This document shows positions 2,891-30,945 of a stretch of 30,972 nucleotides of DNA, piece by piece (position 1 is the stretch's first letter; the number at the start of each line of letters is the position of its first letter). Below the pieces are notes generated by a model, which worked only from the letters and a program-made list of their open reading frames with translations, did not search any database and had not been told where the DNA came from. This stretch comes from a virus: positions 1 through 30,972 of IMG/VR virus record IMGVR_UViG_3300042549_008293; one strand, given 5' to 3'. The translations under genes were made by a program, and so were the position numbers.

Positions 2891-3150
2891 GCGGCCCCCT
2901 TCGCCTTCATGCGAGCGGGCTTGCGTGCAGGCGTGCCGCGCAGCACATACCACGACACATCGGGCCGCAGTTCTTCGCAGCGCACGCCGGTTGCCCGTTC
3001 AATGTCCGGGCAGTGGTCGGCGGGAACTCGGCCGCGAGCAATCCACATTGCCGGGGCGTTGAGGGCTAAGCCGCATTCTCTGGCAAGCTGCGACGAAGAC
3101 CCCGCGCATGAGATGGCACGCCGTAGCGCATCAAGTTGTCTCTGCTCCAT
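2887..3150 (-). CDS. Cro/YdaS-like helix-turn-helix regulator
   Basis: The 87-residue protein starts MEQRQLDALRRAISCAGSSS. A helix-turn-helix of the YdaS/Cro kind runs from about residue 6 to 62: LRRAI..AGSSSQLARECGL...AMWIARGRVPADHCPDIERATGV.CEELRPD. The ending ERATGV..EELRPD is typical of YdaS-like phage Cro proteins. It is the first gene of the leftward early operon and sits directly beside divergent promoters, the position of cro in lambdoid phages. It probably binds operators in 3151-3230 and perhaps 3637-3674. The C-terminus is lysine-rich. Confidence 0.8.
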   Translation of the reverse strand: MEQRQLDALRRAISCAGSSSQLARECGLALNAPAMWIARGRVPADHCPDIERATGVRCEELRPDVSWYVLRGTPARKPARMKAKGAA

Positions 3151-3156
3151 GCCGCT

Positions 3157-3184
3157 AGCATATCACTCCGGTGAGAGCGTGCAA
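3157..3184 (-). promoter_or_regulatory. Leftward early promoter for the cro operon
   Basis: On the minus strand a -35 like TTGCAC (3179-3184) and a -10 TATGCT (3157-3162) are separated by 16 bases. The TGA before the -10 gives an extended -10 (TGnTATGCT). The predicted start of transcription lies almost at the cro ATG, so the mRNA would have little or no leader. The spacer contains the inverted repeat TCACTCCGGTGA (3163-3174), a candidate operator. Confidence 0.5.
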
Positions 3185-3200
3185 GTGTTTTTTGCGGGGC

Positions 3201-3229
3201 TTGCGCGGTGTAGGGTTTGCACCTATCAT
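3201..3229 (+). promoter_or_regulatory. Rightward promoter ahead of attenuator
   Basis: TTGCGC (3201-3206) and TATCAT (3224-3229, 5 of 6 consensus bases) are separated by 17 bases. A transcript would begin near 3236 and enter the structured terminator region at once. It is divergent from the cro promoter. Confidence 0.5.
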
Positions 3230-3241
3230 CTGAGCTGTCGA

Positions 3242-3334
3242 TGCGGCCACGTCGATTCAGCCTGAGCCCTGACTCATGCGTTCTCCCCTCGGGGTTGGTG
3301 TGGCCGCACTAGAACGCAGCAGTCAGGGCTTTTT
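3242..3334 (+). terminator. Terminator with competing antiterminator helix (leader attenuator or terminated sRNA)
   Basis: The terminator stem pairs AGCCCTGACT (3265-3274) with AGTCAGGGCT (3321-3330), continued inside by GCGTTCT (3278-3284) with AGAACGC (3311-3317) and capped by CCCCTCGGGG (3285-3294). A T run follows (3330-3334). A second helix pairs 3242-3255 with 3295-3308, 14 consecutive pairs with 4 G-U pairs and the core GCGGCCAC/GTGGCCGC. Its two strands interleave with those of the terminator, so both cannot form fully at once. This is the architecture of a transcription attenuator; alternatively it is the 3' end of an sRNA of about 100 nt. The stems are read directly from the sequence and the switching is inferred. 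Confidence 0.7.
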
Positions 3335-3649
3335 GCGTTTCTGGACGGGTAGCGCGGCGGCCTTCTTGACACTCACAGCTAGCGGGCTTGCATCGGCCCC
3401 CACCGCAGAACAGACCGGCCCTCGTACCCCCGAGGCGTTGCCGTGGAGCCTTTCAGCGAGGGACTCCGGATGTTGCGTGGTCAGCGGGTGAGACAAGCCA
3501 CGCAGCGGAAGTGAATCGCTGCCTCCTGGGTGTGCTGGCGCTAAGGCGTGGGCAGGGTGTGTGAGCAGTCATCGGCTGTCACCCCTTGGGGAACCTATGG
3601 CTAAGGGTTACTACGGGTAAAAAACCCTGCTTTTCACTCACGCTTGCCG
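3335..3649 (+). other. Non-coding control region with further hairpins
   Basis: No convincing gene is present. TGCGTGG (3474-3480) can pair with CCACGCA (3498-3504). The adjoining GCAGCG (3502-3507) can pair with CGCTGC (3517-3522) and shares three bases with the previous stem. CCCC-TT-GGGG is at 3582-3591. These stems suggest a structured leader RNA upstream of the plus-strand operon. Confidence 0.4.
3604..3634 (+). terminator. Weak intrinsic terminator-like hairpin
   Basis: AGGGTT (3604-3609) pairs with AACCCT (3623-3628) across a 13-base loop, and TTTT follows at 3631-3634. It lies just upstream of the promoter for the plus-strand operon, where it could insulate that promoter from upstream transcription. 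Confidence 0.35.
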
Positions 3650-3674
3650 TTGACACGGCACTCACGTGCGTGAG
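3637..3674. promoter_or_regulatory. Operator-like repeats (CTCACG / CGTGAG)
   Basis: The palindrome CTCACG-TG-CGTGAG (3661-3674) overlaps the promoter spacer, and another CTCACG half-site is at 3637-3642, 24 bases upstream. The same half-sites form CGTGAG-TG-CTCACG (12514-12527) in the promoter of cassette C15. This is a candidate binding site for the phage Cro-like or another regulator. Confidence 0.4.
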
Positions 3675-3679
3675 AGACT
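3650..3679 (+). promoter_or_regulatory. Plus-strand early operon promoter
   Basis: A consensus -35 TTGACA (3650-3655) is followed 18 bases later by GAGACT (3674-3679), a poor -10. It is the best candidate promoter immediately upstream of the first gene of the plus-strand operon at 3720. The weak -10 and the overlapping palindrome suggest regulated use. Confidence 0.4.
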
Positions 3680-3719
3680 TCTTCCCATGCGCTGAGAGGT
3701 TCAGCGCGAAAGGGAAGCG

Positions 3720-4157
3720 ATGCAAACCACCCAAGCCCGAGCCCTCGCGCACTACACCCAGCTTGCCAGCCAAGCCGCGTGCTGGGCCTCGCAAGCCGCC
3801 AACGAAGCCGCAGCAGTCGCAGACGCAGCCGACGATGACGACGCAGCCCTTGAGAGCGTGGCCGATGACGCGGCAGACGAACTGCTGACGGAAGCCGGCG
3901 AACTGCCGCTGTACATGGCCGAAGACGACAAGCCCACCGGCACGCGCTACTACAAGGCGTGGAACGGCTCGCAACTGCGCGAGGGGCTGACGTGCGATGA
4001 GATCGTGGAGGCGTGCATTTGGGCCCCGGCCGGGGCTGATCTGCGCCACGCCATGTATGTGCTGCGCGAGAAGCTGCGGGCCATTGCGCACGACAAGCAC
4101 GCGGCAGAGGTGACGAAGATTGCGCGCAGCCTCATCGCTGAACAGGGGGAAGCATGA
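3720..4157 (+). CDS. Hypothetical early phage protein
   Basis: The 145-residue product is the first gene of the plus-strand operon. The N-terminal half is very alanine-rich and acidic, with a long predicted helix (about residues 5-60, including AADDDDAALESVADDAADEL). The C-terminal part (YYKAWNGSQLREGLTCDEIV, then EKLRAIAHDKHAAEV) is more mixed. A purine-rich AAAGGGAAG ribosome-binding site precedes the ATG. Its TGA overlaps the next ATG. I do not recognise the family. Confidence 0.65.
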   Translation: MQTTQARALAHYTQLASQAACWASQAANEAAAVADAADDDDAALESVADDAADELLTEAGELPLYMAEDDKPTGTRYYKAWNGSQLREGLTCDEIVEACIWAPAGADLRHAMYVLREKLRAIAHDKHAAEVTKIARSLIAEQGEA

Positions 4158-4324: not shown

Positions 4325-4590
4325 GCCTCTGGACAACCCCCCGCCGCCAAGACATCAACCCTTGGGCCGTCACGCGCTTTGCCGACACCGACGAAGCATG
4401 GGAGCTGAACGACATGGCACGCCAAGCCGCAGACGAGCGCGCAGCCTCTGCCCGCTACCACCAAGCCGCAGAGGCTGCTAGCGAGTTTCAGGGCGACGAG
4501 CCGGCCGATGATTTCGACTTCGCGCGGGGCCTGCTGCTTGCCATCGCGGTTACGGCTGTGCTGGCTTCTATCGTGGTGGTGCTGCTGTGA
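4321..4590 (+). CDS. Small membrane-anchored phage protein
   Basis: The start is GTG at 4321, overlapping the upstream TGA, which gives 89 residues. An acidic, alanine-rich cytoplasmic-type part (DTDEAWELNDMARQAADERA) is followed by a C-terminal membrane helix (GLLLAIAVTAVLASIVVVLL). It is coupled to the next gene by GTGA. A longer upstream reading frame is a shadow of the previous genes. Confidence 0.55.
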   Translation: MSLWTTPRRQDINPWAVTRFADTDEAWELNDMARQAADERAASARYHQAAEAASEFQGDEPADDFDFARGLLLAIAVTAVLASIVVVLL

Positions 4591-4700
4591 GCCTGCTGCG
4601 CGAGTTTCTGGCCGTCTATTGGCTCTACAGGGCGGCGCATGGCCGCATCTACGCAACCAAGACCGCATGGCGCATCGCTGTGCAGGGAGTACCGTTTTGA
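4587..4700 (+). CDS. Short basic phage protein
   Basis: This 37-residue ORF starts with GTG at 4587, overlapping the preceding TGA. It reads SLLREFLAVYWLYRAAHGRI and ends AWRIAVQGVPF. The pattern of an aromatic helix, then R-A-A-H, then AWRIAVxGxPF recurs in very short phage early proteins. Its TGA overlaps the TTG start of the ERF gene. The function is unknown. Confidence 0.5.
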   Translation: MSLLREFLAVYWLYRAAHGRIYATKTAWRIAVQGVPF

Positions 4701-5338
4701 AGGTCTATCAAGCAATCAATGCTGTGCAAGGCGCGCTGTCCGTCGAAGGCATCGGCAAGACGCGCAAGAACACGCAAGGCAGCGGCTACATGTTCCGGGG
4801 CATTGACGAGGTTTACAACGCCCTGTCACCGCTGCTGGCGAAGCACGGGCTTGTCATCATCCCGCGCATGATCGGCCGCTCTTGTGAAGAGCGGGCCAGC
4901 AAGGCGGGCGGCGCGCTGTTCTATGTCACGGTGGAAGCCGAGTTCGATTTCGTGTCCGCAGAGGATGGCAGCAAGCACACCGCGCGCACGTTCGGCGAAG
5001 CGATGGACAGCGGCGACAAGGCCACCAACAAGGCCATGAGCGCGGCCTACAAGTACGCGGCGTTTCAGACGTTCGCCATCCCCACCGAAGGCAACCCGGA
5101 CGCCGACGCGGAAACGCATGAGGTGCAGGGCCGCCAGCAGCGCGGCGAAGCGCAGCCCGACATGAGCCCCAAGGCTCGCGCCGAGCGCATCAAAGTGGGC
5201 GTGGCTGCTGGCGATGCCGCAGGCGCTGCGGAGGTGCTGGCCTCGCTGCCAGAGGCGGAACTTAACGCAATCTGGGCGCTGCTCGATGAGAAGACCGCCG
5301 ACAAGCTGAGCGCCGCTTGGCCTAAGGTGGCAGCATGA
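4697..5338 (+). CDS. erf: ERF-family single-strand annealing protein
   Basis: The 213-residue protein matches the ERF recombinase family (P22 Erf), which anneals complementary single strands during phage recombination and genome circularisation. Visible blocks are VYQAINAVQGALSVEGIGKT, YMFRGIDEVYNALSPLLAKH, VEAEFDFVSAEDGS and FGEAMDSGDKATNKAMSAAY, followed by KYAAFQTFAIP, the most characteristic family segment. The start is TTG at 4697, overlapping the previous TGA. The C-terminal 60 residues after about position 140 are variable. It pairs naturally with the following Gp157-like gene. Confidence 0.9.
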   Translation: MKVYQAINAVQGALSVEGIGKTRKNTQGSGYMFRGIDEVYNALSPLLAKHGLVIIPRMIGRSCEERASKAGGALFYVTVEAEFDFVSAEDGSKHTARTFGEAMDSGDKATNKAMSAAYKYAAFQTFAIPTEGNPDADAETHEVQGRQQRGEAQPDMSPKARAERIKVGVAAGDAAGAAEVLASLPEAELNAIWALLDEKTADKLSAAWPKVAA

Positions 5339-6878: not shown

Positions 6879-7091
6879 GTGGAAGCCTGGCTTGATGAGC
6901 ATGCGCCTGGCTACCCTGCCTACACGCTGGCCGAGGACGGCGAAGATGGCTGGGCCTTCTGGATCGTGCCGCAGGACACCACGAGCTACGTTGGGCCAGA
7001 CCTGCGCATTCAGTGGCTCGGCACTGGATGGCCGGACAACTACAGCTATGACGGCCTGACCGGCAGATGGCTGGAAGTTGAGGCGGCCTAA
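6879..7091 (+). CDS. Cassette C1 protein
   Basis: The 70-residue product starts at GTG 6879 and includes MEAWLDEHAPGYPAYTLAED, then a GWAFWIVP segment and IQWLGTGWPDNYSYDGLTGR. It is an acidic, aromatic-rich small protein of phage character with no known function. Coding-like residues continue upstream in this frame to the attC core (PLAEDAARLAV), suggesting that the original N-terminus was cut off at the recombination point. The TAA stop lies in the left core of the following attC. Confidence 0.55.
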   Translation: MEAWLDEHAPGYPAYTLAEDGEDGWAFWIVPQDTTSYVGPDLRIQWLGTGWPDNYSYDGLTGRWLEVEAA

Positions 7092-7185
7092 CGTGGGAGC
7101 TACGGCCGACGCAAACGGCGCCGGGCTGTAGCCACAGAGACAACGTGACCGCCGTTTGCGGTCGGCCTTGAGCGACGGGTTAGGC
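7086..7185 (+). repeat. attC site of C1
   Basis: 100 bp from GCCTAAC to GTTAGGC, with arms GAGCTACGGCCGACGCAAACGG and CCGTTTGCGGTCGGCCTTGAGC that pair almost fully (each arm shown here is 22 or fewer bases and includes unpaired bases). Confidence 0.85.
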
Positions 7186-7204
7186 CCGTTGGTGGAGAAA
7201 CGCA

Positions 7205-7396
7205 ATGACCGAGTATTACCACACCCTGATTGAAAAAGGCGGCAAAGTGCTGCGCAGCTATGGCGATGTGGTCCTGGAAACGGACTACCAGATTCTGGGC
7301 CACAAGGACAACGAAGCGCAGAGCCCACCCGACAAGCAATGGATCGGCTGGAAAACGGTCCCGTACCCGGCGCCGACTTTTGTTCGCTTGCCTTGA
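7205..7396 (+). CDS. Cassette C2 protein
   Basis: The 63-residue protein is preceded by GGAG at 7 bases from the ATG. It reads MTEYYHTLIEKGGKVLRSYG and then DVVLETDYQILGHKDNEAQS, ending PYPAPTFVRLP. It is probably a compact beta-rich fold of unknown function. This is one of the few cassettes whose stop (TGA) comes just before, not inside, its attC. Confidence 0.6.
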   Translation: MTEYYHTLIEKGGKVLRSYGDVVLETDYQILGHKDNEAQSPPDKQWIGWKTVPYPAPTFVRLP

Positions 7397-7398
7397 GG

Positions 7399-7494
7399 GC
7401 CTAACGTTTGAGCTAAGCCGGCACTGCCGGCACAGGAGTTGAAATGACCACAGAAAGTACGCCGGCAGTGCTCGGCTTGAGCGAGGGGTTAGGC
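7399..7494 (+). repeat. attC site of C2 with internal start signal
   Basis: 96 bp from GCCTAAC to GTTAGGC; arms GAGCTAAGCCGGCACTGCCG and CGGCAGTGCTCGGCTTGAGC pair. The loop holds AGGAG followed by an ATG at 7444, which opens the C3 reading frame. Confidence 0.85.
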
Positions 7495-7788
7495 CTCGAC
7501 CGCGAAAGGCTAGCAGACGATGCTATGCGCCGAAGGGCAGAAAGGTTTGCCCACAGAAACCATAAAAGGTTCGCTGTTGATTGGATTGGAGAGGCAACGC
7601 AGAACACCCGGATTGTGTCGGCCGACACTCCGCGCGAAGCGGCTGTTATCGTGGCTGGCGTTGATTGGGCAAAGATAGGGCCGCCCAAATGGAGCAGCAA
7701 TCCAACATACGCGGGCACATACCTTGTCAACTGCTACGAGGTGGATGGTTGTTTCGGGCGTCGGATGATCGTGACTGAAGAGGCCTAA
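7444..7788 (+). CDS. Cassette C3 protein, start inside the preceding attC
   Basis: The 114-residue product starts in the attC loop (MTTESTPAVLGLSEGLGLDR). The ribosome-binding AGGAG lies just upstream and the core site is read as SEGLG. It then contains AERFAHRNHKRFAVDWIGEA and WSSNPTYAGTYLVNCYEVDG. No good internal start with its own ribosome-binding site is visible, so the cassette seems to depend on the attC start. The stop TAA is in the next attC core. Function unknown. Confidence 0.65.
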   Translation: MTTESTPAVLGLSEGLGLDRERLADDAMRRRAERFAHRNHKRFAVDWIGEATQNTRIVSADTPREAAVIVAGVDWAKIGPPKWSSNPTYAGTYLVNCYEVDGCFGRRMIVTEEA

Positions 7789-7848
7789 CGCTTGAACTAA
7801 AGCGGACCGGCACGCAGTGACGGGTCCGCGTTCAGTGAAGGGTTAGGG
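7783..7848 (+). repeat. attC site of C3
   Basis: 66 bp from GCCTAAC to GTTAGGG. It matches the attC at 9513-9578 at 65 of 66 positions. The only difference is the last base of the right core, which lies beyond the G^TT crossover and so belongs to the next cassette. Confidence 0.85.
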
Positions 7849-7894
7849 CGCCAGAGCCGAAGCGAAAAATAGTTTGCGTGTTACAAAATAGTTG

Positions 7895-7922
7895 TTGACG
7901 CTGGCGGCTGCTGTGCTACATT
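7895..7922 (+). promoter_or_regulatory. Promoter carried by cassette C4
   Basis: TTGACG (7895-7900) and TACATT (7917-7922) are separated by 16 bases. It lies inside the long leader of C4, whose sequence differs from that of most other cassettes. Confidence 0.55.
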
Positions 7923-7958
7923 AACACCCATCGCAACACGCAACCCGGAGCAAGCAAC

Positions 7959-8168
7959 ATGACCACTCAGCAAACCTTCACAGTGGCCACGATCCACGCG
8001 CCTTTCGTCAAGTCCGCTTTGCGCGCGCAAGCTGTCGCGCAAAAGCAAGGCAAGCCGGCCTACGTGGTGCTTGGCTGCAAGGCGCAGGTTTATGGCCGCT
8101 TCCCCGGTGTGTGGTGCCATCGAGTGCATGCAGACGGTCGCGTCGATTGCTGCGTGATTGAAGCATGA
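7959..8168 (+). CDS. Cassette C4 first protein
   Basis: The 69-residue protein reads MTTQQTFTVATIHAPFVKSA, then RAQAVAQKQGKPAYVVLGCK and CCVIEA at the end. The alternating hydrophobic pattern suggests a small alpha/beta fold. The leader CGGAGCAAGCAAC supplies the ribosome-binding site and closely resembles the leader of C15. The TGA overlaps the ATG of the next gene. Function unknown; its own promoter and paired arrangement recall cassette-borne stability modules but do not show it. Confidence 0.55.
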   Translation: MTTQQTFTVATIHAPFVKSALRAQAVAQKQGKPAYVVLGCKAQVYGRFPGVWCHRVHADGRVDCCVIEA

Positions 8169-8347
8169 ACGACAAAAGCAAAGGGGGGCGACCCCCCGCA
8201 CCACCCGGCCTGCGCCGGGTAAACGTGCCGCTGCGCCTGCCCACATGGCAGGTGCAGTGGATGGCGCAGCAGCCCGAGACGCCTGCGGAGTTGATCGAAG
8301 CCGCGCTGCTGAAGGCGCACAAGCTGCGCCCGCCGCGTGCGCCCTAA
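8165..8347 (+). CDS. Cassette C4 second protein, basic
   Basis: The 60-residue protein reads MNDKSKGGRPPAPPGLRRVN, then VPLRLPTWQVQWMAQQPETP and ends in a short helix ELIEAALLKAHKL. The basic N-terminus followed by a V-x-L-R-L-P-x-W strand and two helices is compatible with a ribbon-helix-helix type DNA-binding protein. It is coupled to the preceding gene by ATGA and stops in the left core of the attC. Confidence 0.5.
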   Translation: MNDKSKGGRPPAPPGLRRVNVPLRLPTWQVQWMAQQPETPAELIEAALLKAHKLRPPRAP

Positions 8348-8426
8348 CGATAGTTTGAGCAGCGCCCGCGTGGCGCTGCCGGAGTGAGCTACGCCGCTGG
8401 GCGTCTGCTCGAAACGCGAGTTATGC
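8342..8426 (+). repeat. attC site of C4 (diverged cores)
   Basis: 85 bp from CCCTAAC to GTTATGC. Each core has one mismatch to the attC consensus. GAGCAGCGCCC pairs with GGGCGTCTGCTC with one unpaired base, the bulge pattern expected in attC hairpins. Confidence 0.65.
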
Positions 8427-8459
8427 AGCGCCCTGGTGGCGCACTACAGGAGATGGAAG

Positions 8460-8741
8460 ATGGACAGGAAAACTGCGAACAGAGAATGGCGCGACGTAAC
8501 GCGCGGCGCTCCCGAAGGCGCACCGACCGGGCGCACCGTACATGCGTTTGCGCAGCGCGTTGAGGCGCTGGCGATTGCCGGCTGCGACAAGCGACACGCT
8601 GCCACTAAGGCTGTGGGCGGCCAGCTTAGCGATGTGGCCTTCAATCTCGCGCAGCGCGTGGGTCAGCCGCTCAGCACACACGACGCCGAGATTCTGGACA
8701 AGCTGCGGCGCGAGTGGGACGCGGCTGTTGGTGCTGCATAA
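8460..8741 (+). CDS. Cassette C5 protein
   Basis: The 93-residue protein starts at ATG 8460 with AGGAG 7 bases upstream; a GTG at 8436 is a weaker in-frame alternative. It reads MDRKTANREWRDVTRGAPEG and is helical and charged in the C-terminal half (LSDVAFNLAQRVGQPLSTHD, LDKLRREWDAAVGAA). Function unknown. It ends with TAA in the attC core. Confidence 0.6.
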   Translation: MDRKTANREWRDVTRGAPEGAPTGRTVHAFAQRVEALAIAGCDKRHAATKAVGGQLSDVAFNLAQRVGQPLSTHDAEILDKLRREWDAAVGAA

Positions 8742-8839
8742 CGTTCGAGCTAACCGCGACCGCTGCGGCGCTGCGGAGTAGGCAGAAACACAGGATCGGC
8801 CCGCCGTAGCGGGTCGCGGGGTTCAGCGAGTAGTTAGGC
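8736..8839 (+). repeat. attC site of C5
   Basis: 104 bp from GCATAAC to GTTAGGC, identical base for base to the attC at 10676-10779. Confidence 0.8.
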
Positions 8840-8861
8840 CTGGCGGCCGGAGAAGAAGACC

Positions 8862-9122
8862 ATGACCGACGAAGACATCAAGACAGCCGCGAGGGCCGCT
8901 GAGTTGGCCGATGAGCAAGACTGGTACGGGAAAAAGATCGTTTGCGCGATGTGGGCGGAAGACGTGGATTTGCTGCCTGCATTGCGAAGATTCGCAGCGG
9001 CCGTCGAAGCCGCAGAGCGCGAGCGGTGCGCCAAGCTGTGCGAGAACTACGCCCAGCGCGGAGGCCTGACCGTGGCCGAGGAACTGAGTGCAAAGCGCCT
9101 GGCGGATGCCTTGAGGGCCTAA
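8862..9122 (+). CDS. Cassette C6 protein with ERERCAKLCE motif
   Basis: The 86-residue product starts MTDEDIKTAARAAELADEQD after a GGAGAAGAAG ribosome-binding site. It contains a helix ending AAVEAAERERCAKLCENYAQ and finishes SAKRLADALRA. The ERERCAxLCE helix followed by a short helix ending in xxLRA or xxIRA is a recurrent module of small phage early proteins. The same module occurs in C7 and C16. Function unknown. The stop is in the attC core. Confidence 0.65.
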   Translation: MTDEDIKTAARAAELADEQDWYGKKIVCAMWAEDVDLLPALRRFAAAVEAAERERCAKLCENYAQRGGLTVAEELSAKRLADALRA

Positions 9123-9236
9123 CGTGCGAGCTAAAGCCGACCAGCACGGCGCAGAGGAGCAACGATGACCACAGAGCACACGAGCCCAGACCAAGACACC
9201 CGCCGTGATGGGTCGGCGCTGAGCGAGGGGTTAGGC
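9117..9236 (+). repeat. attC site of C6 with internal start signal
   Basis: 120 bp from GCCTAAC to GTTAGGC. AAAGCCGACC pairs with GGTCGGCGCT. The loop carries GAGGAG and the ATG at 9165 that opens C7. The first 60 bases are nearly identical to the attC at 11807-11926. Confidence 0.85.
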
Positions 9237-9518
9237 CCGCTGCAGGCCGAAGCCAAGGCGCAGGCGTTTGCGGAAGCCTTGCGCGGCATAGCTGACGGCC
9301 TAGACCAGCGCCGCTGGTGGTGCCGGCCCGACGCGCTGGTGATGAGCACGCTGCGGCGGGCGGCCGACGAGCTGGAAAAAGCAGGCAAGGCCGCTGCTGA
9401 AGAGCGCGAGCGGTGCGCGAGGTTGGTGGAAACGATGGACACCACCGGGCACGATGGCTACATCGAGACGACCGCAGACCTGTGCGATGCCATCGCGGCG
9501 CGCATTCGTAGGGCCTAA
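9165..9518 (+). CDS. Cassette C7 protein, start inside the preceding attC
   Basis: The 117-residue protein begins in the attC loop (MTTEHTSPDQDTRRDGSALS, then EGLG from the core). The cassette part has AFAEALRGIADGLDQRRWWC, an ERERCARLVETMD helix of the ERERCA type and a terminal DLCDAIAARIRRA. The next in-frame ATG is about 60 codons further and lies inside conserved-looking sequence, so the attC start appears to be the functional one. The TAA stop is in the next core site. Confidence 0.7.
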   Translation: MTTEHTSPDQDTRRDGSALSEGLGPLQAEAKAQAFAEALRGIADGLDQRRWWCRPDALVMSTLRRAADELEKAGKAAAEERERCARLVETMDTTGHDGYIETTADLCDAIAARIRRA

Positions 9519-9578
9519 CGCTTGAACTAAAGCGGACCGGCACGCAGTGACGGGTCCGCGTTCAGTGAAGGGTTAGGC
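9513..9578 (+). repeat. attC site of C7
   Basis: 66 bp from GCCTAAC to GTTAGGC. AGCGGACC and GGGTCCGC pair. It is the twin of the attC at 7783-7848. Confidence 0.87.
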
Positions 9579-9603
9579 GGCTTTTGGAGAAACGGAGAGA
9601 CCT

Positions 9604-9903
9604 ATGAGCGAGCTGAATTTCGAGTTTGAGCACGAAGGACGCACGGTGAGGCCAGGCCAAGTGCTGCACGTTCACCCCTCCGCGTGGCGGAAGGTGGGGC
9701 CCACTGCAAAGGTGGAGCGCTACTACGGCGACAGCGTGATGCTCCGCGCCGACAACGGCGCCGTGCCGACCGTGCCGCTGCACTGCCTTTCTTGGGAGCC
9801 ACACCCTGAAACGGTGGCAATGGAGGGGCTGCACAAGGCGGGGTTCCCTTGCCCGACAAGCCGTGATGTTGCCGTGTGGATGGCAGCGCGCGGGGCCGCC
9901 TAA
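9604..9903 (+). CDS. Cassette C8 protein
   Basis: The 99-residue product reads MSELNFEFEHEGRTVRPGQV, then LHVHPSAWRKVGPTAKVERY and DSVMLRADNGAVPTVPLHCL. The glycine-spaced strands from about residue 12 to 66 look like a small beta-barrel (SH3/Tudor-like), followed by a short helical tail ending VAVWMAARGAA. It has its own GGAGAG ribosome-binding site. Stop in the attC core. Function unknown. Confidence 0.6.
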   Translation: MSELNFEFEHEGRTVRPGQVLHVHPSAWRKVGPTAKVERYYGDSVMLRADNGAVPTVPLHCLSWEPHPETVAMEGLHKAGFPCPTSRDVAVWMAARGAA

Positions 9904-9998
9904 CGGTCGAATTCAGCCGGCACCAACGGCTGCACAGGAGCATGAAGATGAGCAATTCTGACCAGCCGTGGGGGCTCGGTTGCAGTGAGGGGTTAGAG
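9898..9998 (+). repeat. attC site of C8 with internal start signal
   Basis: 101 bp from GCCTAAC to GTTAGAG (last core base atypical). AGCCGGCACCAACGGC and GCCGTGGGGGCTCGGTT pair partly. AGGAG at 9936-9940 and an ATG at 9948 lie in the loop. Confidence 0.75.
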
Positions 9999-10328
9999 CC
10001 CACGCGATACGCCTGCGGGCAGGAGCTGTATTGGGAATGGAGCGAATACAGCAGCCGCAAGAACACCGGAGAAATGGTCACGATAACCAAAGTCGGGCGC
10101 CGCTGGCTGGAACTCAGCAACCGCTACCGGGTTGACCAAAGCACGCTGGTCGCAGACGGAGGCCCATACTCGCCGCCTGGGCGCTGCTTTCTGAGCCGCG
10201 AAACGCGAGAGGCTGAGCGCGCACGCGATGCCGCATGGGCCGCGTTGCGCAACCGGATGCTGCACCAAGCACCAGACAAGGTGAGCGCGGACGACATTGC
10301 GCACGCTACCCGGTTGCTTGGGCTCTAA
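9948..10328 (+). CDS. Cassette C9 protein, start inside the preceding attC
   Basis: The 126-residue protein starts at ATG 9948, seven bases after AGGAG, both in the attC (MSNSDQPWGLGCSEGLEPTR). The body contains VTITKVGRRWLELSNRYRVD, then ADGGPYSPPGRCFLSRETRE and a helical arginine/alanine-rich end. The V-G-R-R-W-L-E-L...YRVD...GRCFLSR pattern recurs in small phage proteins of unknown function. It is in frame with the attC start without any gap. Stop TAA in the next attC. Confidence 0.68.
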   Translation: MSNSDQPWGLGCSEGLEPTRYACGQELYWEWSEYSSRKNTGEMVTITKVGRRWLELSNRYRVDQSTLVADGGPYSPPGRCFLSRETREAERARDAAWAALRNRMLHQAPDKVSADDIAHATRLLGL

Positions 10329-10391
10329 CGTCCACGGTAAGCGGGGCGCCCCGGCTTGCCGGGGCGACTCCGCTTGACCACGATGTTAGGC
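10323..10391 (+). repeat. attC site of C9
   Basis: 69 bp from CTCTAAC to GTTAGGC. The long stem AAGCGGGGCGCCCCGG / CCGGGGCGACTCCGCTT contains the expected unpaired bases. Confidence 0.8.
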
Positions 10392-10427
10392 GGCTTGGTT
10401 GATGAAGCAAAAGGAAGAGGCATGAAG

Positions 10428-10673
10428 ATGGATACAAGCATTGGCGCAACGATGGTGCTGTACGCGGCGGTGTTTTTTGCCTGCGGCTGGGGATGGGGCC
10501 AATGGTGGAACGAGCGGCAGGTACGCCAAGAGCGCCGCGCTCTTGAAGCCGGGCGCGTGACTGTGAGCCTGCCGGCAAACGCGGAGGACGCGGCAACGTC
10601 GCTGGAATTGGTGGCCGAGCTGGTACGCAAGGCCGAGGCACAGCGCAAAGCAAAAGCCTCGGCTGGCTACTAG
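10428..10673 (+). CDS. Cassette C10 small membrane protein
   Basis: The product has 81 residues from ATG 10428 (83 from ATG 10422), with AGGAAGAGG upstream. It begins MDTSIGATMVLYAAVFFACG with one membrane helix, then a charged stretch WWNERQVRQERRALEAGRVT and a helix ELVAELVRKAEAQRKAKASA. It is probably an inner-membrane protein with a cytoplasmic coiled tail. It stops with TAG just before the attC. An in-frame ATG in the preceding core (10383) lacks a ribosome-binding site. Confidence 0.6.
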   Translation: MDTSIGATMVLYAAVFFACGWGWGQWWNERQVRQERRALEAGRVTVSLPANAEDAATSLELVAELVRKAEAQRKAKASAGY

Positions 10674-10675
10674 AC

Positions 10676-10779
10676 GCATAACGTTCGAGCTAACCGCGAC
10701 CGCTGCGGCGCTGCGGAGTAGGCAGAAACACAGGATCGGCCCGCCGTAGCGGGTCGCGGGGTTCAGCGAGTAGTTAGGC
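10676..10779 (+). repeat. attC site of C10
   Basis: 104 bp from GCATAAC to GTTAGGC, identical to the attC at 8736-8839. The similarity continues about 20 bases into the leader of the next cassette in both places. Confidence 0.8.
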
Positions 10780-10800
10780 CTGCGGGCCGGAGAGGAAGCA

Positions 10801-11016
10801 ATGGCAAAAGTACGCTTTTACGTGGACGTACCCGAGTACCGGATGAGCGGGTTTTGCCTGTACGCAACCACCGCGCCGAGCGGGGCTGTGTGCGCTGGTT
10901 ACAAGCGCGTGGCGTTCGATGTGGGCATGCCGCCAGAGGTCTGGAAGTCGCACGACGTTTCGGCGCCAGTGACGATGGTGGCGGTAGTTGAAGAGCCAGA
11001 AGCAGAGCAGGCCTAA
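10801..11016 (+). CDS. Cassette C11 protein
   Basis: The 71-residue product reads MAKVRFYVDVPEYRMSGFCL, then YATTAPSGAVCAGYKRVAFD. The pattern KVRFYVDVPE...LYATT.P.G....GYKRVAFDV resembles a small phage beta-sheet protein seen in early regions. GGAGAGGAAG precedes the ATG. TAA in the attC core. Function unknown. Confidence 0.65.
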   Translation: MAKVRFYVDVPEYRMSGFCLYATTAPSGAVCAGYKRVAFDVGMPPEVWKSHDVSAPVTMVAVVEEPEAEQA

Positions 11017-11097
11017 CGCCAGCTTAAAAGGCGGCGCACAGGTTTAGGAAGTTGAGACGGCGCCGTTGCGCCGTCCTTTTTGAAGCGACAGTTAGGC
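11011..11097 (+). repeat. attC site of C11
   Basis: 87 bp from GCCTAAC to GTTAGGC. AAAAGGCGGCGCA pairs with TGCGCCGTCCTTTTT. The T-rich right arm could also act as a terminator in the plus strand. Confidence 0.82.
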
Positions 11098-11124
11098 GTC
11101 TTGGTGGCGCTGCAGGAGAGATTG

Positions 11125-11319
11125 ATGAGCAAAAAGATTCGTTACTGGTGCGATAGCGGCGCAAACATTCACTCGATGCGCGAGGGCACGACCACGCTAG
11201 ACGAGATTGGCATGACCGAGGCCGAGTGGCTGGCGTTGACCGACGATGAGCGAGACGACCTAATGCGTGCGATTGCCTGCGAGCGCTTGGATTGGGGCTA
11301 CTCGCTTGAAGACGCCTAA
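11125..11319 (+). CDS. Cassette C12 DUF7167-like protein
   Basis: The 64-residue protein reads MSKKIRYWCDSGANIHSMRE, then TTTLDEIGMTEAEWLALTDD and ERLDWGYSLEDA. The KIRYWCDSGANIHS opening with a W-rich helix and the ending RLDWG is a widely distributed phage early protein (as I recall, DUF7167). AGGAG lies six bases before the ATG. It is the clearest case of a known phage protein packaged as an integron cassette. The stop is in the attC core. Confidence 0.75.
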   Translation: MSKKIRYWCDSGANIHSMREGTTTLDEIGMTEAEWLALTDDERDDLMRAIACERLDWGYSLEDA

Positions 11320-11368
11320 CACCTAATTCCCCCGCCCGCAGGGTCGGGGGTGCTATGAGGGGTTAGGC
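11314..11368 (+). repeat. attC site of C12 (shortest)
   Basis: 55 bp from GCCTAAC to GTTAGGC. TTCCCCCG pairs with CGGGGGTG around a short loop. Confidence 0.8.
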
Positions 11369-11387
11369 CCCACGAGGAGAAGCAGGC

Positions 11388-11858
11388 ATGACAGTGATGG
11401 ACAACGAAGGCCCGGCCAATCCGAGCGTGCATGAGCCGCGCGTGACGGGGAGCCCCGAGGCCATTTGGCTGGTGTACGGGGAGCTTGAGCACGACGATAC
11501 GCACGTCGAACTGTGCAGCCACGAGGGCGTGACGTGGTGCGAAGACGCGCAGTTTGCTACTGACGTGCGGTACACGCGCACGGACCTTGCGGCAGAGCGT
11601 GTGTTTTCCGCCGTGGCCGCAGAGCGCGAGCACGCCCACAACGCAGGATTCGTGGAGGCTTCGCGGCTGCACGGCGCAGAGATTGAACGGCTGCGCGCCG
11701 TTCTTCGCGTTGCGCGCGAGGGCTACGCCAGCGAGGCCGCGACAGGGCTGCCGGTGCTGCCGCAGTGGCGCGAGCGCACGGTTGCGCTGATTGATGGGGC
11801 TCTGGGGCCTAACGTTCGAGCTAAAGCCGACCAGCACGGCGCAGAGGAGCAACGATGA
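11388..11858 (+). CDS. Cassette C13 protein
   Basis: The 156-residue protein reads MTVMDNEGPANPSVHEPRVT and has the phage-type block IWLVYGELEHDDTHVELCSH...WCEDAQFATDVRYTRTDL, followed by a helical AAEREHAHNAGFVEASRLHG segment. GAGGAG lies eight bases upstream. Its frame does not use the attC TAA: it reads on into the attC and stops with TGA at 11856-11858, overlapping the attC-borne ATG (ATGA). Function unknown. Confidence 0.68.
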   Translation: MTVMDNEGPANPSVHEPRVTGSPEAIWLVYGELEHDDTHVELCSHEGVTWCEDAQFATDVRYTRTDLAAERVFSAVAAEREHAHNAGFVEASRLHGAEIERLRAVLRVAREGYASEAATGLPVLPQWRERTVALIDGALGPNVRAKADQHGAEEQR

Positions 11859-11926
11859 CCACGGAACACACGAGCACAAACCAAGCCGCCGGCCCCTTGG
11901 GGTCGGCTTTGAGCGATGGGTTAGGC
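11807..11926 (+). repeat. attC site of C13 with internal start signal
   Basis: 120 bp from GCCTAAC to GTTAGGC, a relative of the attC at 9117-9236 with a diverged right loop. GAGGAG and an ATG at 11855 in the loop open a 43-codon frame (MTTEHTSTNQAAGPLGSALS...) ending at 11986. It is out of frame with the C14 gene and overlaps its start. Confidence 0.85.
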
Positions 11927-11954
11927 CGCCCGCTACAACCTTGGAGAGCAAACA

Positions 11955-12374
11955 GTGAAGAAGCCAAAGACAGTGATCGAAGCTGAGGCCGCGCTGAGCG
12001 CCAAAGCCGCCGAAGTTGCCGCAGCGAGGGACACGCTGAAGCGGCTGGAAGCCGAACACGGCGCCGCCTATGCCGCTGTGCGCCAAGCGCAGACCGAGGC
12101 CGACGCTGCGCTGCCGCAGTGCCGCATGGTGCGTGTGCGGCGCTGGCGAAGTGGCAACGAAGAAGACGCGGGCCGCGTGGTGATTGTGCGGCGCACACCG
12201 GGCGGCATGCTTGTTGTGCGCCATGTTGGGGCGCCTGCGGGTCACGAATACAAATTCAAGTGGTCCGAGCACTCGCACAAGTTCCGGAAGGCAGAGCGGG
12301 TCGGCTACACCATCGACACCAGCGAACTGCGGGACGTGCCGGCCGAGTACCTGCCAAGTGCCCAAGCGGCCTAA
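11955..12374 (+). CDS. Cassette C14 coiled-coil protein
   Basis: The 139-residue product starts with GTG at 11955, six bases after GGAGAG. The N-terminal part is a coiled coil (VIEAEAALSAKAAEVAAARD, TLKRLEAEHGAAYAAVRQAQ). It is followed by a beta-rich domain (RMVRVRRWRSG, GGMLVVRHVGAPAGHEYKFK). The attC-borne frame ends 30 bases inside this gene, so translation could be coupled by re-initiation. The stop TAA is in the next core. Function unknown. Confidence 0.62.
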   Translation: MKKPKTVIEAEAALSAKAAEVAAARDTLKRLEAEHGAAYAAVRQAQTEADAALPQCRMVRVRRWRSGNEEDAGRVVIVRRTPGGMLVVRHVGAPAGHEYKFKWSEHSHKFRKAERVGYTIDTSELRDVPAEYLPSAQAA

Positions 12375-12468
12375 CGTGGGAGCTACGGCCGACGCAAACG
12401 GCGCCGGGCTGTAGCCACAGAGACAACGTGACCGCCGTTTGCGGTCGGCCTTGAGCGACGGGTTAGCC
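12369..12468 (+). repeat. attC site of C14
   Basis: 100 bp from GCCTAAC to GTTAGCC. It matches the attC at 7086-7185 at 99 of 100 positions. The single change is in the right core, beyond the crossover point. Confidence 0.85.
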
Positions 12469-12510
12469 CGCCCCACCCGAGGCGCGCAGATGTAACAGTG
12501 CAAATAGTGC

Positions 12511-12539
12511 TTGCGTGAGTGCTCACGATGATGGATAGT
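12511..12539 (+). promoter_or_regulatory. Promoter with palindromic operator in cassette C15
   Basis: TTGCGT (12511-12516) and GATAGT (12534-12539) are 17 bases apart. The palindrome CGTGAG-TG-CTCACG (12514-12527) overlaps the -35 and spacer, an ideal repressor position. It uses the same half-sites as the palindrome at 3661-3674. Confidence 0.45.
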
Positions 12540-12571
12540 TCAACCCATCGACACGCCAACCGGAGCAAGCA

Positions 12572-12760
12572 ATGACCTACTTCCAACAAACCGCCGCTGC
12601 CGCGCAACGCATGGAGCAAGCCCGCGCCGCCCGCAAGACCTGGGTTGTGACAATCCCGGGGAAGATTGAGCTGTACGAAGCGCCCAGCCAAGCCGCCGCC
12701 GAAGCTATGCTGACGCGCTCTCTGCGCAAGGCTGGATATGTGGCGATGCCGAAGCAATGA
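12572..12760 (+). CDS. Cassette C15 first protein
   Basis: The 62-residue protein reads MTYFQQTAAAAQRMEQARAA, then TWVVTIPGKIELYEAPSQAA and a helix EAMLTRSLRKAGY. The helix-strand-strand-helix pattern suggests a compact fold. The leader CCGGAGCAAGCA is nearly identical to that of C4, and the first residues (MT..QQT) also agree. The TGA overlaps the next ATG. Confidence 0.55.
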   Translation: MTYFQQTAAAAQRMEQARAARKTWVVTIPGKIELYEAPSQAAAEAMLTRSLRKAGYVAMPKQ

Positions 12761-12927
12761 GCATTGCCAAGACACCGGCCCAGCGCCAGGCCGAGCGCAA
12801 GGCCCGCGAACTAGCCGCAGGCCGCGTGCAGTGGAAGCGCTGGGTTCACCCTGACGATGTGCCAGCGCTGACGGAGTACGCCGAGAAGCTGGCACGCAAG
12901 AGAGCCCGCAGTGAGAGAGCGGGCTAA
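12757..12927 (+). CDS. Cassette C15 second protein, small basic
   Basis: The 56-residue ORF starts with ATGA overlap at 12757. It reads MSIAKTPAQRQAERKARELA, then AGRVQWKRWVHPDDVPALTE and a lysine/arginine-rich end. The pattern AERKARxLAxGRVxxxRWVHPDDVxALxEYAxKLxRKR resembles small ribbon-helix-helix-like phage proteins (strand, then two helices). With the preceding gene it forms a promoter-equipped pair. A toxin-antitoxin role is possible but unproven. Confidence 0.5.
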   Translation: MSIAKTPAQRQAERKARELAAGRVQWKRWVHPDDVPALTEYAEKLARKRARSERAG

Positions 12928-12945
12928 CGCTTGAGTTTAAGGCCA
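12922..12945 (+). repeat. attC left half-site
   Basis: GGCTAACGCTTGAGTTTAAG matches the left arm of canonical attC sites with one extra T, but no right arm or GTTRRRY core follows before the next gene. C15 and C16 are therefore fused. Confidence 0.6.
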
Positions 12946-12967
12946 TGTAACCGGAGCGAGGAACAAC

Positions 12968-13210
12968 ATGCAAACTGACAGAGAAAAAGCGATTGAAAAG
13001 CTGTGGCAGAACAGCGAATACAGCACGCGCTGGGCCTCCGTTGCGGCGGCTTATGACGCTGGTATGGCCGCCGCAAACGCCGCGCATGAGCAGGCATTGG
13101 CGGTAGCTTTGGCAGACGCACGCATGGTGGAGCGCGAGCGGTGCGCTAGGTTGTGCGAGGAAAACGCCTACGAAGTCGGTTCCGCGCTGGCGGCGATTCT
13201 TAGGGCCTAA
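12968..13210 (+). CDS. Cassette C16 protein with ERERCARLCE motif
   Basis: The 80-residue product reads MQTDREKAIEKLWQNSEYST, then AAYDAGMAAANAAHEQAL and ARMVERERCARLCEENAYEV, ending SALAAILRA. It is helical and shares the ERERCAxLCE...A.xLRA module with C6 and C7. GAGG precedes the ATG by six bases. TAA in the attC core. Confidence 0.65.
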   Translation: MQTDREKAIEKLWQNSEYSTRWASVAAAYDAGMAAANAAHEQALAVALADARMVERERCARLCEENAYEVGSALAAILRA

Positions 13211-13309
13211 CGTTCGAGCTAACCCCGACAAGGAGGCGAGACCATGAAAGACGAAGCGAGCCCAAGCCACAACGCCGACGCAGGTCGGGGGCTGAGCGAG
13301 GGGTTAGGC
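13205..13309 (+). repeat. attC site of C16 with internal start signal
   Basis: 105 bp from GCCTAAC to GTTAGGC. AACCCCGAC pairs with GTCGGGGGCT. AGGAGG and an ATG at 13244 are in the loop and open C17. The last 30 bases equal the half-site at 6820-6849. Confidence 0.85.
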
Positions 13310-13495
13310 GCGAACGCGGAGCCAACGAGCGCCGAAGACCGCGCCTTCTGGGCAAACCTCGTAATTGCCAACGTTTGGTTCGCTACAGGCGACGGAGTGC
13401 TAGGGCCTTGGCCTGGTCTTTTGCACCTTTTAATTTGCTTCAGCATTCGTTGGCCGTACTGGCAGCGCCAATACTTTGCAGCCAAGAGCGCCTAA
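13244..13495 (+). CDS. Cassette C17 membrane protein, start inside the preceding attC
   Basis: The 83-residue protein begins in the attC (MKDEASPSHNADAGRGLSEG) after a strong AGGAGG. The cassette part is AEPTSAEDRAFWANLVIANV followed by WPGLLHLLICFSIRWPYWQR, with one or two membrane segments. The frame runs unbroken from the attC start. No internal start with a ribosome-binding site is visible. TAA in the next core site. Confidence 0.65.
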   Translation: MKDEASPSHNADAGRGLSEGLGANAEPTSAEDRAFWANLVIANVWFATGDGVLGPWPGLLHLLICFSIRWPYWQRQYFAAKSA

Positions 13496-13590
13496 CGCAG
13501 AGCTAACCGGAAACCCCGGCAGCTACTGCAAGTGACGAAGCGCGCGAGCGCTGCCCTGCCGGGGGTTTCCGGTTGAGCGACGAGTTAGCC
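13490..13590 (+). repeat. attC site of C17
   Basis: 101 bp from GCCTAAC to GTTAGCC. AACCGGAAACCCCGGCAG pairs with CTGCCGGGGGTTTCCGGTT, an unusually long near-perfect stem. Confidence 0.85.
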
Positions 13591-13617
13591 GGCGTGTCCG
13601 GCGCGAAAGGAACGAGG

Positions 13618-13899
13618 ATGAGCGACAGAGGAACAGGAACCACGACACGCCAGATGACCGAGGCCCCGGTGGGAGCGGTCTTTGTGTGGTGCAACAGCCG
13701 CACCGCGTACCCGCAGGAACTGGCGAAGAAGCTAGGCCGCGATGACCTAGTGGTGCGCCCGATGTCGTGGCTGGAGCCGCGCAACGTGATGGGCCGCGAC
13801 TTCCCTGGCGTGATCGTGGACCACGCCGCGCAGCCGGACAGCGAGGGATACGCGGCGCTGCACTACCTGCGCACCCGTGGCGTGCTGGTAGCCGGCTAA
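13618..13899 (+). CDS. Cassette C18 protein
   Basis: The 93-residue protein reads MSDRGTGTTTRQMTEAPVGA, then VFVWCNSRTAYPQELAKKLG and VVRPMSWLEPRNVMGRDFPG, ending ALHYLRTRGVLVAG. The alternating strands and helices (VFVWCN, DDLVVRP, GVIVDHAA) give a small alpha/beta look. Starts: ATG 13618 after AAAGGAACGAGG, or a TTG in the attC (13573) in the same frame. The stop is in the attC core. Function unknown. Confidence 0.62.
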   Translation: MSDRGTGTTTRQMTEAPVGAVFVWCNSRTAYPQELAKKLGRDDLVVRPMSWLEPRNVMGRDFPGVIVDHAAQPDSEGYAALHYLRTRGVLVAG

Positions 13900-13980
13900 C
13901 GTGGAGTTGAGCGGCGGCCCGCTCGGCACTTCAACAACCAAGGACGGCCGTGGGCCGTCCGCTCGAACGCAGGGTTAGGC
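13894..13980 (+). repeat. attC site of C18
   Basis: 87 bp from GGCTAAC to GTTAGGC. GGCGGCCCG and TGGGCCGTCC pair around the loop. The left core has one mismatch. Confidence 0.78.
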
Positions 13981-14004
13981 GTCATGTGGACAGGCAGAGA
14001 ACAA

Positions 14005-14175
14005 ATGAAGGCGGCTTTTATCGTGGTGGCGCTGATCGTCATTGCGATCACGCTAACAGGCGCAGTGACGGCAAAGGCCGACTGCGAGGCCAAGGGTGGG
14101 AAGCGGCTGCGGGGCACTTGGGCGTGGGAAGGCTTCCAGTGCTACGACGCCCGCACGCTGAAGGTGCTGCCTTGA
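14005..14175 (+). CDS. Cassette C19 small exported or membrane protein
   Basis: The product has 56 residues from ATG 14005, or 63 from ATG 13984. An N-terminal hydrophobic helix (MKAAFIVVALIVIAITLTGA) looks like a signal peptide or anchor. The rest, ADCEAKGGKRLRGTWAWEGF plus QCYDARTLKVLP, has two cysteines that could form a disulphide in the periplasm. It resembles small phage envelope proteins. The TGA stop lies one base before the final left core. Confidence 0.6.
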   Translation: MKAAFIVVALIVIAITLTGAVTAKADCEAKGGKRLRGTWAWEGFQCYDARTLKVLP

Positions 14176-14176
14176 C

Positions 14177-14196
14177 GCCTAACGTGTTTTAGCCCA
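14177..14196 (+). repeat. attC left half-site (array right boundary)
   Basis: GCCTAACGTGTTTTAGCCCA has the left core but no matching right arm or GTTRRRY core downstream. It marks the end of the array. Confidence 0.6.
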
Positions 14197-14675: not shown

Positions 14676-14842
14676 GCATCTTCAGATCAGCGGCGGCGTG
14701 GAAAGCAGACACGCGGGCAGTTGCTTAGTGGTAGAGCCCCGGCTGAGAGCCGGTGGTCGCGGGTTCGATTCCCGCCTGCCGTCTTCATAAAGCCCTGGGC
14801 CCGGGGCAAGCAGGAGTAGCGCCCTGCCCGCCCTGAAGATGC
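14676..14842. repeat. 10-bp inverted repeat enclosing the tRNA
   Basis: GCATCTTCAG (14676-14685) and CTGAAGATGC (14833-14842) are perfect complements around the tRNA-like gene. A third copy of the left arm core, CGCATCTTC (14910-14918), can compete for the same right arm. Confidence 0.5.
14714..14782 (+). tRNA. tRNA-like gene, anticodon GAG by position (degenerate)
   Basis: A cloverleaf can be drawn. The D arm is GCTT-AGTGGTA-GAGC (14723-14737). The anticodon loop is CTGAGAG (14743-14749), with T33 at 14744 and anticodon GAG at 14745-14747. The T arm is GCGGG-TTCGATT-CCCGC (14759-14775). The acceptor has only five good pairs (GGCAG/CTGCC), there is no encoded CCA, and the variable loop is short although GAG would be a leucine anticodon (leucine tRNAs normally have a long arm). 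It is a divergent phage tRNA, a pseudogene or a tRNA-like element. Confidence 0.5.
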
Positions 14843-30150: not shown

Positions 30151-30945
30151 TCAGTGCTCCAAAAAACGAGGGCCGGAGCCCTCTAAACCCGTTACGGCAA
30201 CTTCTTGGCGCAGGGCGGCGAGCCGTCCTTCACTGATCTTGCGGCCACGTTCAGCGCGCTCCTCCGGCGTCATCGACGCATGCTTCAGCTTTGCGGCTTC
30301 GGCCATCTTGCGGCGGGTTTCTTCGGAAGCCGGTTGACGAATACGCTTTTTGGCCGCCTCGCTCATCCGCTGGCGGGTTTCTTCCGAAAACTCGCGGGCG
30401 GAAAGTTTGGCGCGATGTTCGGGCGACATAACCCAACCGTCCGCCACTTTCTTGCGCCATGCTGCGGTCAGCGCCGCAACGTGTCGCGCCCTGACTTCAG
30501 GCTTTTGATAAGCCGCGCGGATTTGCTCGCTTACCCTAGCCTGATACTCCGGAGAACTCCACATGGCCTGCATTGCCTGACTCATCAGCGCCTTTGTCTG
30601 CGCGCTAGCTTTGCGGCCAGTCGCTTTCTCCGCAATCTTCGCGGCAACGGATGGCATCTTACTCGGCGCGGTATCCCCGCCGATACTGACGTTGTAGCCG
30701 TTGGGAGACATGGTTTTGTGCTCGTCAATCAGGCGCCGCTCGGCGTCGTTCAGTTCGTCTTGAGTTTGGCACGCACAGAGAATCGAAACTTCCGGCTCTC
30801 CGTGCGCCCTCCATGCGCAGTGTACGGCCAACATACTTCCAAGCCGAACACTTTGCCTGTGTTGAGTAACCCTGACCTTCAGTTTCCGGGAGGTTTGCCC
30901 TATGTAGGACTTCCCGCCCGGAAACGTCAGCTTGTAGACGATCAT
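30151..30945 (-). CDS. GIY-YIG homing endonuclease with NUMOD3 repeats
   Basis: The 264-residue protein starts MIVYKLTFPGGKSYIGQTSR. IVYKLT...KSYIGQT gives the GIY-YIG motifs, and the catalytic Arg follows in SRKLKVRVTQHRQS. The conserved Glu-rich segment DELNDAERRLIDEHKT is also visible. After residue 110 come several NUMOD3-type DNA-binding repeats (KASAQTKALMSQAM, LSAREFSEETRQRMSEAAKK, PASEETRRKMAEAAKLKHAS). This is a free-standing homing endonuclease (T4 Seg-like) placed between virion genes; it would spread by cutting relatives lacking it. Confidence 0.85.
   Translation of the reverse strand: MIVYKLTFPGGKSYIGQTSRKLKVRVTQHRQSVRLGSMLAVHCAWRAHGEPEVSILCACQTQDELNDAERRLIDEHKTMSPNGYNVSIGGDTAPSKMPSVAAKIAEKATGRKASAQTKALMSQAMQAMWSSPEYQARVSEQIRAAYQKPEVRARHVAALTAAWRKKVADGWVMSPEHRAKLSAREFSEETRQRMSEAAKKRIRQPASEETRRKMAEAAKLKHASMTPEERAERGRKISEGRLAALRQEVAVTGLEGSGPRFLEH

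Follow-up and report, generated by a model that had tools for sequence, protein, structure and literature searches.

Positions 3201–3334 (plus strand) of a P22-like short-tailed phage could well form an attenuator-type short transcription unit beside cro, in which a 5′ segment of the RNA transiently pre-empts the terminator; we put this reading forward tentatively. The window, meaning the whole stretch of DNA analyzed, covers the 30,972 bases of a virus record, and the unit in it would consist of a promoter, a structured RNA of ~95–100 nt, and an intrinsic terminator (Table 1). The sequence holds two long helices that exclude each other geometrically, and the same plan is conserved in an RNA family of related phages. 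For 3201–3334, we infer from these features that the promoter is active, that transcription terminates, and that the unit switches; its controlling signal and its target operon are likewise inferred.

Table 1 Features of the putative transcription unit and of its neighborhood in the window.
Feature	Position	Strand	Basis or remark
Cro-like gene, YdaS family, 87 aa	2887–3150	−	Pfam PF15943, E 1e-17; phrog_35 transcriptional repressor
cro promoter-like site, TTGCAC-16-TATGCT	3184–3157	−	By eye; cro ATG about at +1 (expected start site)
Promoter-like site: −35 TTGCGC (3201–3206), 17-nt spacer, −10 TATCAT (3224–3229)	3201–3229	+	Sequence inspection
5′ hairpin SL1: 7-bp stem, 6-nt loop CGGCCA (3244–3249)	3237–3256	+	Folding
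Rival helix, strand 1 (UGCGGCCACGUCGAUUC)	3242–3258	+	17-bp pairing with 3292–3308
Terminator stem P1, 5′ arm (11 bp, 2×2 internal loop, 7 bp)	3264–3283	+	Folding
Inner hairpin 1, CCC(CUCG)GGG	3284–3294	+	Folding
Rival helix, strand 3, partner of 3242–3258	3292–3308	+	Pairing and minimum-energy folds
Inner hairpin 2, UGGUGU(GGCC)GCACUA	3296–3311	+	Folding
Terminator stem P1, 3′ arm	3312–3331	+	Folding
T-run of the intrinsic terminator, T5	3330–3334	+	Sequence
First plausible gene of the plus-strand operon, 145 aa	3720–4157	+	No family; leads on to erf
erf (ERF superfamily)	4508–5338	+	Same operon as gene 3720

A terminator and a rival helix that exclude each other

The terminator stem P1 pairs 11 bp (3264–3274 with 3321–3331) and, beyond a 2×2 internal loop, 7 bp (3277–3283 with 3312–3318), and as in intrinsic terminators this GC-rich stem (3264–3331) has a T-run directly after it. 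The first-pass annotation had described a 10-bp terminator stem with inner helices and a T run; all of these were found at that place, the stem being actually 11 bp plus 7 bp. Folded alone, 3262–3334 reached −39.9 kcal/mol (z −5.2), a value that none of 200 shuffles equaled, and in a scan of the whole window P1 stood out as the clearest noncoding candidate among long closed hairpins of terminator type. The minus strand was rejected as the functional strand, as it folds more poorly (z −2.96), has no T-run, and loses the G-U pairs of hairpin 2.

The rival helix begins with nine consecutive Watson-Crick pairs, which are followed by a stretch with several G-U pairs, and its duplex energy is −27.3 kcal/mol. 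At least nine consecutive Watson-Crick pairs occurred in 0.05–0.25% of dinucleotide shuffles, and an equally strong duplex in 0.1–1.5%. The 14-bp helix recognized earlier (3242–3255 with 3295–3308) is thus real and longer than had been thought, with 17 bp that go beyond the shuffled controls. Its strands do interleave with those of the terminator, as had also been claimed: in the order 1-2-3-4, strand 1 pairs with 3 in the rival and 2 with 4 in the terminator. Since the connecting stretches of 5, 9, and 3 nt are too short to bridge helices of 17 and 18 bp, the full rival and the full terminator are mutually exclusive.

The folding path of growing transcripts, computed as a thermodynamic and not a kinetic simulation, started with SL1; the rival was the minimum-energy fold for 3′ ends at 3308–3324, and the terminator took over from 3328. 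The rival helix is thereby predicted to form first and to exclude the terminator, as in an attenuator. At full length, the fold with the rival enforced had −31.0 kcal/mol versus −45.8 kcal/mol for the terminator fold, and with a terminator more stable by 15 kcal/mol termination could be simply constitutive. By inspection, the SL1 loop CGGCCA is also complementary to UGGCCG (3301–3306) in inner hairpin 2, and this 6-bp contact is a possible milder alternative, compatible with the terminator.

In the mechanism that we propose, polymerase would leave the promoter and the 5′ segment would pair first with the interior of the future terminator, giving the 17-bp rival helix and excluding the terminator. 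As the arm 3312–3331 emerges, the more stable terminator stem would displace the rival, and transcription would stop at the T-run. Transcription speed or a bound protein or RNA could hold the first fold and so allow read-through. Termination with release of a short RNA would be the default, and read-through towards gene 3720 and the erf operon the regulated outcome. The design of a transcription-attenuation switch, which the first-pass annotation had proposed, draws support from the minimum-energy path and from related phages, which have an RNA family built in the same way whose exclusive pairings covary.

Classical ribosome-mediated attenuation was considered and is not supported. The leader has just 28 nt, and a 23-codon open reading frame (ATG at 3241; 3241–3312) would be nearly leaderless. 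As a leader peptide this frame finds no support either: it does not repeat any one type of codon in a row, and the related RNAs lack a corresponding frame.

Promoter-like sites and genomic neighborhood

The divergent promoter that had been placed before the leader is plausible by eye, where TTGCGC-17-TATCAT and TTGCAC-16-TATGCT stand back-to-back, with a predicted transcription start at ~3236 on the plus strand. However, neither of the divergent sites was reported by a consensus scan at 9 of 12, the plus-strand one lying under its threshold.

The cro gene is oriented divergently to the terminator unit, and protein family scans showed that its strand also carries an O-like replication gene and genes for NinB and a cytosine methylase; the plus strand carries the Erf/Gp157 operon. 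A CI-type repressor gene was not found in window 3150–3720, where most Cro relatives carry a divergent one, and the window proteins scanned included no recognized integrase. The Cro-like gene is separated by 570 bp from 3720, the first plausible gene of the plus strand. No plausible gene start lies within 300 nt past the T-run, and RNA structure in 3335–3660 was no more stable than expected on either strand.

A separate TTGACA at 3649, accompanied by repeated CTCAC/GTGAG motifs, may be a promoter element serving gene 3720. These half-sites recur at 3165–3177, 3372, and 3635–3675, near the cro promoter and near the TTGACA upstream of gene 3720, and are possible Cro operators.

Further along the erf operon, about a dozen integron attC-like sites (GGCCTAACGTT.GAGCTAA...GTTAGGC) lie between small ORFs (window 7085–14177, plus strand), an array that would represent integron gene cassettes within the phage genome. 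Clusters of attC sites in phages have been reported previously (PMC9892861). A tRNA-Leu (anticodon GAG; 14713–14784, plus strand) sits at the array's end, and a GIY-YIG-type homing endonuclease (30151–30945, minus strand) lies at the contig end.

A conserved RNA family in related phages

Searches with the intergenic region by blastn and nhmmer gave zero matches in phages, plasmids, and 160 fetched loci. The exact P1 arm pattern did not occur in IMG/VR, and the loop-pair pattern TGCGGCCAC..GTGGCCGCA occurred there in 27 places, none of them with a stem and a T-run. As no homologue of the window element was found, its own pairings are without covariation support.

Loci were also fetched around relatives of the Cro-like protein and, separately, of Erf, and the Erf loci led to a family that we call type A. 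It was found by scanning these loci for long closed hairpins with T-runs, followed by pattern searches, and comprises 105 distinct sequences. The majority come from IMG/VR, and at least two are in bacterial assemblies (L321, a Burkholderiales MAG, and L335, Polynucleobacter); other examples are L082/MW202462, L148, and L196. The carriers are aquatic phages.

A type A RNA consists of a 5′ hairpin with the loop UUGGCG just after a −10 box, a spacer, an 18-bp P1, and a U-run. Its P1 encloses hairpin A, a linker CGCCAA, and hairpin B, which usually has a GNRA-type loop. Two long-range pairings are interleaved with P1, one between the SL1 loop and the linker and the other between the spacer and the loop of hairpin A. 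In an alignment of 18 sequences, 97.9% of the cells were paired, and 34 of the 42 pairs, interleaved ones included, had changes on both sides. The covariation score of these sequences was 0.625, versus 0.187 when shuffled and at most 0.106 when slid, and 35 diverse sequences gave 0.614 versus 0.175. In one member (L105), two loop-linker pairs are changed on both sides (UUGGUC/GACCAA). Spacer and loop of the same RNA were complementary over 5.9 bp on average, versus 3.75 bp when swapped between sequences.

The spacer directly abuts the 5′ arm of P1, so the spacer-loop pairing cannot coexist with the full P1. Both exclusive pairings are kept, which is the signature expected of a switch. Type A members had no match in Rfam, where permissive thresholds brought up chance matches only, and type A is apparently a previously undescribed, strongly conserved phage RNA family. 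We regard it as a more valuable outcome than the window element itself.

A TANNNT box was present in 96 of the 105 type A sequences, mostly ending 5–10 nt before SL1 (15% in controls). In 97, an ATG located nearly always 16–21 nt past the start of the U-run begins an ORF of 40 codons or more. The 5′ neighbor is a small Cro-like gene in many cases and another small gene in the remainder. The proteins encoded downstream are mainly replication-initiation or primosomal proteins, then HNH endonucleases and ParB-like proteins; among 64 of them, for instance, matches to a single primosomal phrog numbered 25 and matches to an O-like phrog 22.

Terminator-type hairpins enclosing at least two hairpins were also seen in L103 (1461–1557, minus strand), L133/L136 (3470–3574, plus strand), and L409 (10447–10543, plus strand). 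These have a complementary 5′ leader segment and differ from type A in sequence; the L103 and L133 elements scored weakly against the type A covariance model (14.7 and 15.3 bits), and elements of this kind were too few for a model of their own.

Relation of the window element to type A

Like type A RNAs, the window element has a −10 box, starts with a 5′ hairpin, and ends in a U-run; its P1 of 18 bp likewise encloses two hairpins, and a 5′ segment is able to pair with the P1 interior, interleaving with the stem. TATCAT in the window ends 7 nt before SL1, inside the type A range of 5–10 nt. In sequence, the P1 arms resemble those of type A (P < 0.001), though stems of the AGCCC..GGGCT type are common among terminators. 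In the whole window, the type A covariance model ranked the element first and second, once per strand, with 16.9 bits (E 0.03), where true members score 86–92 bits and GC-rich control DNA up to 16.1. Membership in type A is not claimed, as 16.9 bits is hardly above this control.

The window element lacks the UUGGCG loop and the CGCCAA linker, in place of which it has the loop CGGCCA with its partner UGGCCG in hairpin 2, and it lacks the start codon 16–21 nt after the U-run, its first gene being 386 nt downstream. The hairpin outside the long-range pairing is the 5′ one in the window element and the 3′ one in type A, and the order of the inner hairpins is reversed. The window interior resembles type A interiors solely in the reverse orientation (P 0.047 versus 0.87). 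This weak evidence suggests that the interior may have been flipped by an inversion between the inverted-repeat arms of P1.

It is conceivable, though we consider it rather doubtful, that the window element and type A belong to one undescribed superfamily of phage RNA switches, in which a 5′ segment would engage the interior of an 18-bp terminator and so pre-empt it, letting CI-less phages meter early or replication genes much as plasmids meter rep.

Alternative explanations

The unit could instead be a stand-alone small RNA gene, whose terminated RNA of ~97 nt would act in trans through loop-loop or antisense contacts with RNA of the host or phage or by binding a protein, an explanation that we find somewhat unlikely. 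In that case the 5′ hairpin and P1 would stabilize the RNA, and its folding would involve the rival helix or the 6-bp loop-loop contact. This would fit a unit with its own promoter-like site and terminator, a 5′ hairpin at the predicted start, and no gene right after the terminator, and type A RNAs are likewise compact promoter-RNA-terminator units between genes of varied identity. However, no complementarity of at least 13 nt to any other transcript of the window was found, which deprives the small RNA of a phage target of this kind and leaves the earlier label of an anti-repressor RNA unsupported. Rfam gave no match above the gathering score, permissive thresholds yielding chance matches only. 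In addition, type A elements stand nearly always immediately before a start codon, which favors a leader function there and counts against a small RNA. If the plus-strand operon had an antitermination element of put or nut type, this would be a suitable place for it, just behind an early-operon promoter, and HK022 putL likewise lies just downstream of PL. However, a put RNA, made of two stem-loops of ~70 nt, suppresses terminators located at a distance and is not a terminator hairpin itself (PMC9378689). The window proteins scanned included no recognized N-like protein, and we consider such an element highly improbable. No boxA or boxB was noted, short of a dedicated scan, and the nut site once suggested for this place lacks support.

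Nearly all the Cro-relative loci examined have a divergent repressor-type reading frame within ~100 nt; it is absent in the window, L017/L018, and MW202462. The terminator might then be an ordinary insulator that replaces the absent repressor gene and keeps residual transcription that starts at the divergent promoter from reaching the erf operon; the rival helix would be a matter of chance or a by-product of folding. A strong, thermodynamically dominant terminator would suit this role. Yet the rival helix is improbable by chance, P1 is about twice the length that a terminator needs and encloses two hairpins, and covariation in relatives shows this unusual layout to be conserved there; we judge simple insulation unlikely.

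Comparison with known systems

The early regions of phages are under the control of a small number of well-studied RNA devices (nut, put, and the P4/P1 antisense RNAs). To these would be added a terminator that is pre-empted when its interior pairs with the 5′ end, an arrangement maintained through compensatory changes in more than 100 aquatic phage sequences and located before replication-initiation genes; it would link phage and plasmid replication control.

The attenuators in the rep leaders of pT181 and pIP501 share with the window element a leader with two exclusive pairings, one of which is an intrinsic terminator (PMC5703833). The order of type A loci (in many a small HTH gene, then promoter, leader, poly-T, and replication gene) is also similar to that of cop, leader, and repR (PMC5703833). 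In pT181, however, the pre-emptor has the terminator's own 5′ arm as its partner (PMC5703833), whereas strand 1 of the window element pairs with the terminator interior. Unlike in these plasmids, an antisense RNA was not found here, and no gene follows the window terminator directly.

Among phage RNAs, IsrK of prophage Gifsy-1 likewise combines a phage promoter, a short RNA, a leaky terminator, and a downstream gene; both its short and its read-through RNAs matter, IsrK acting in trans to control how its read-through transcript is translated (PMC4825925). The likeness to the window element is one of layout, with no sequence relation known. The put RNA of HK022 is likewise a structured RNA just downstream of a lambdoid early promoter, but it acts on RNA polymerase and suppresses later terminators (PMC9378689), whereas the window element forms a terminator hairpin of its own.
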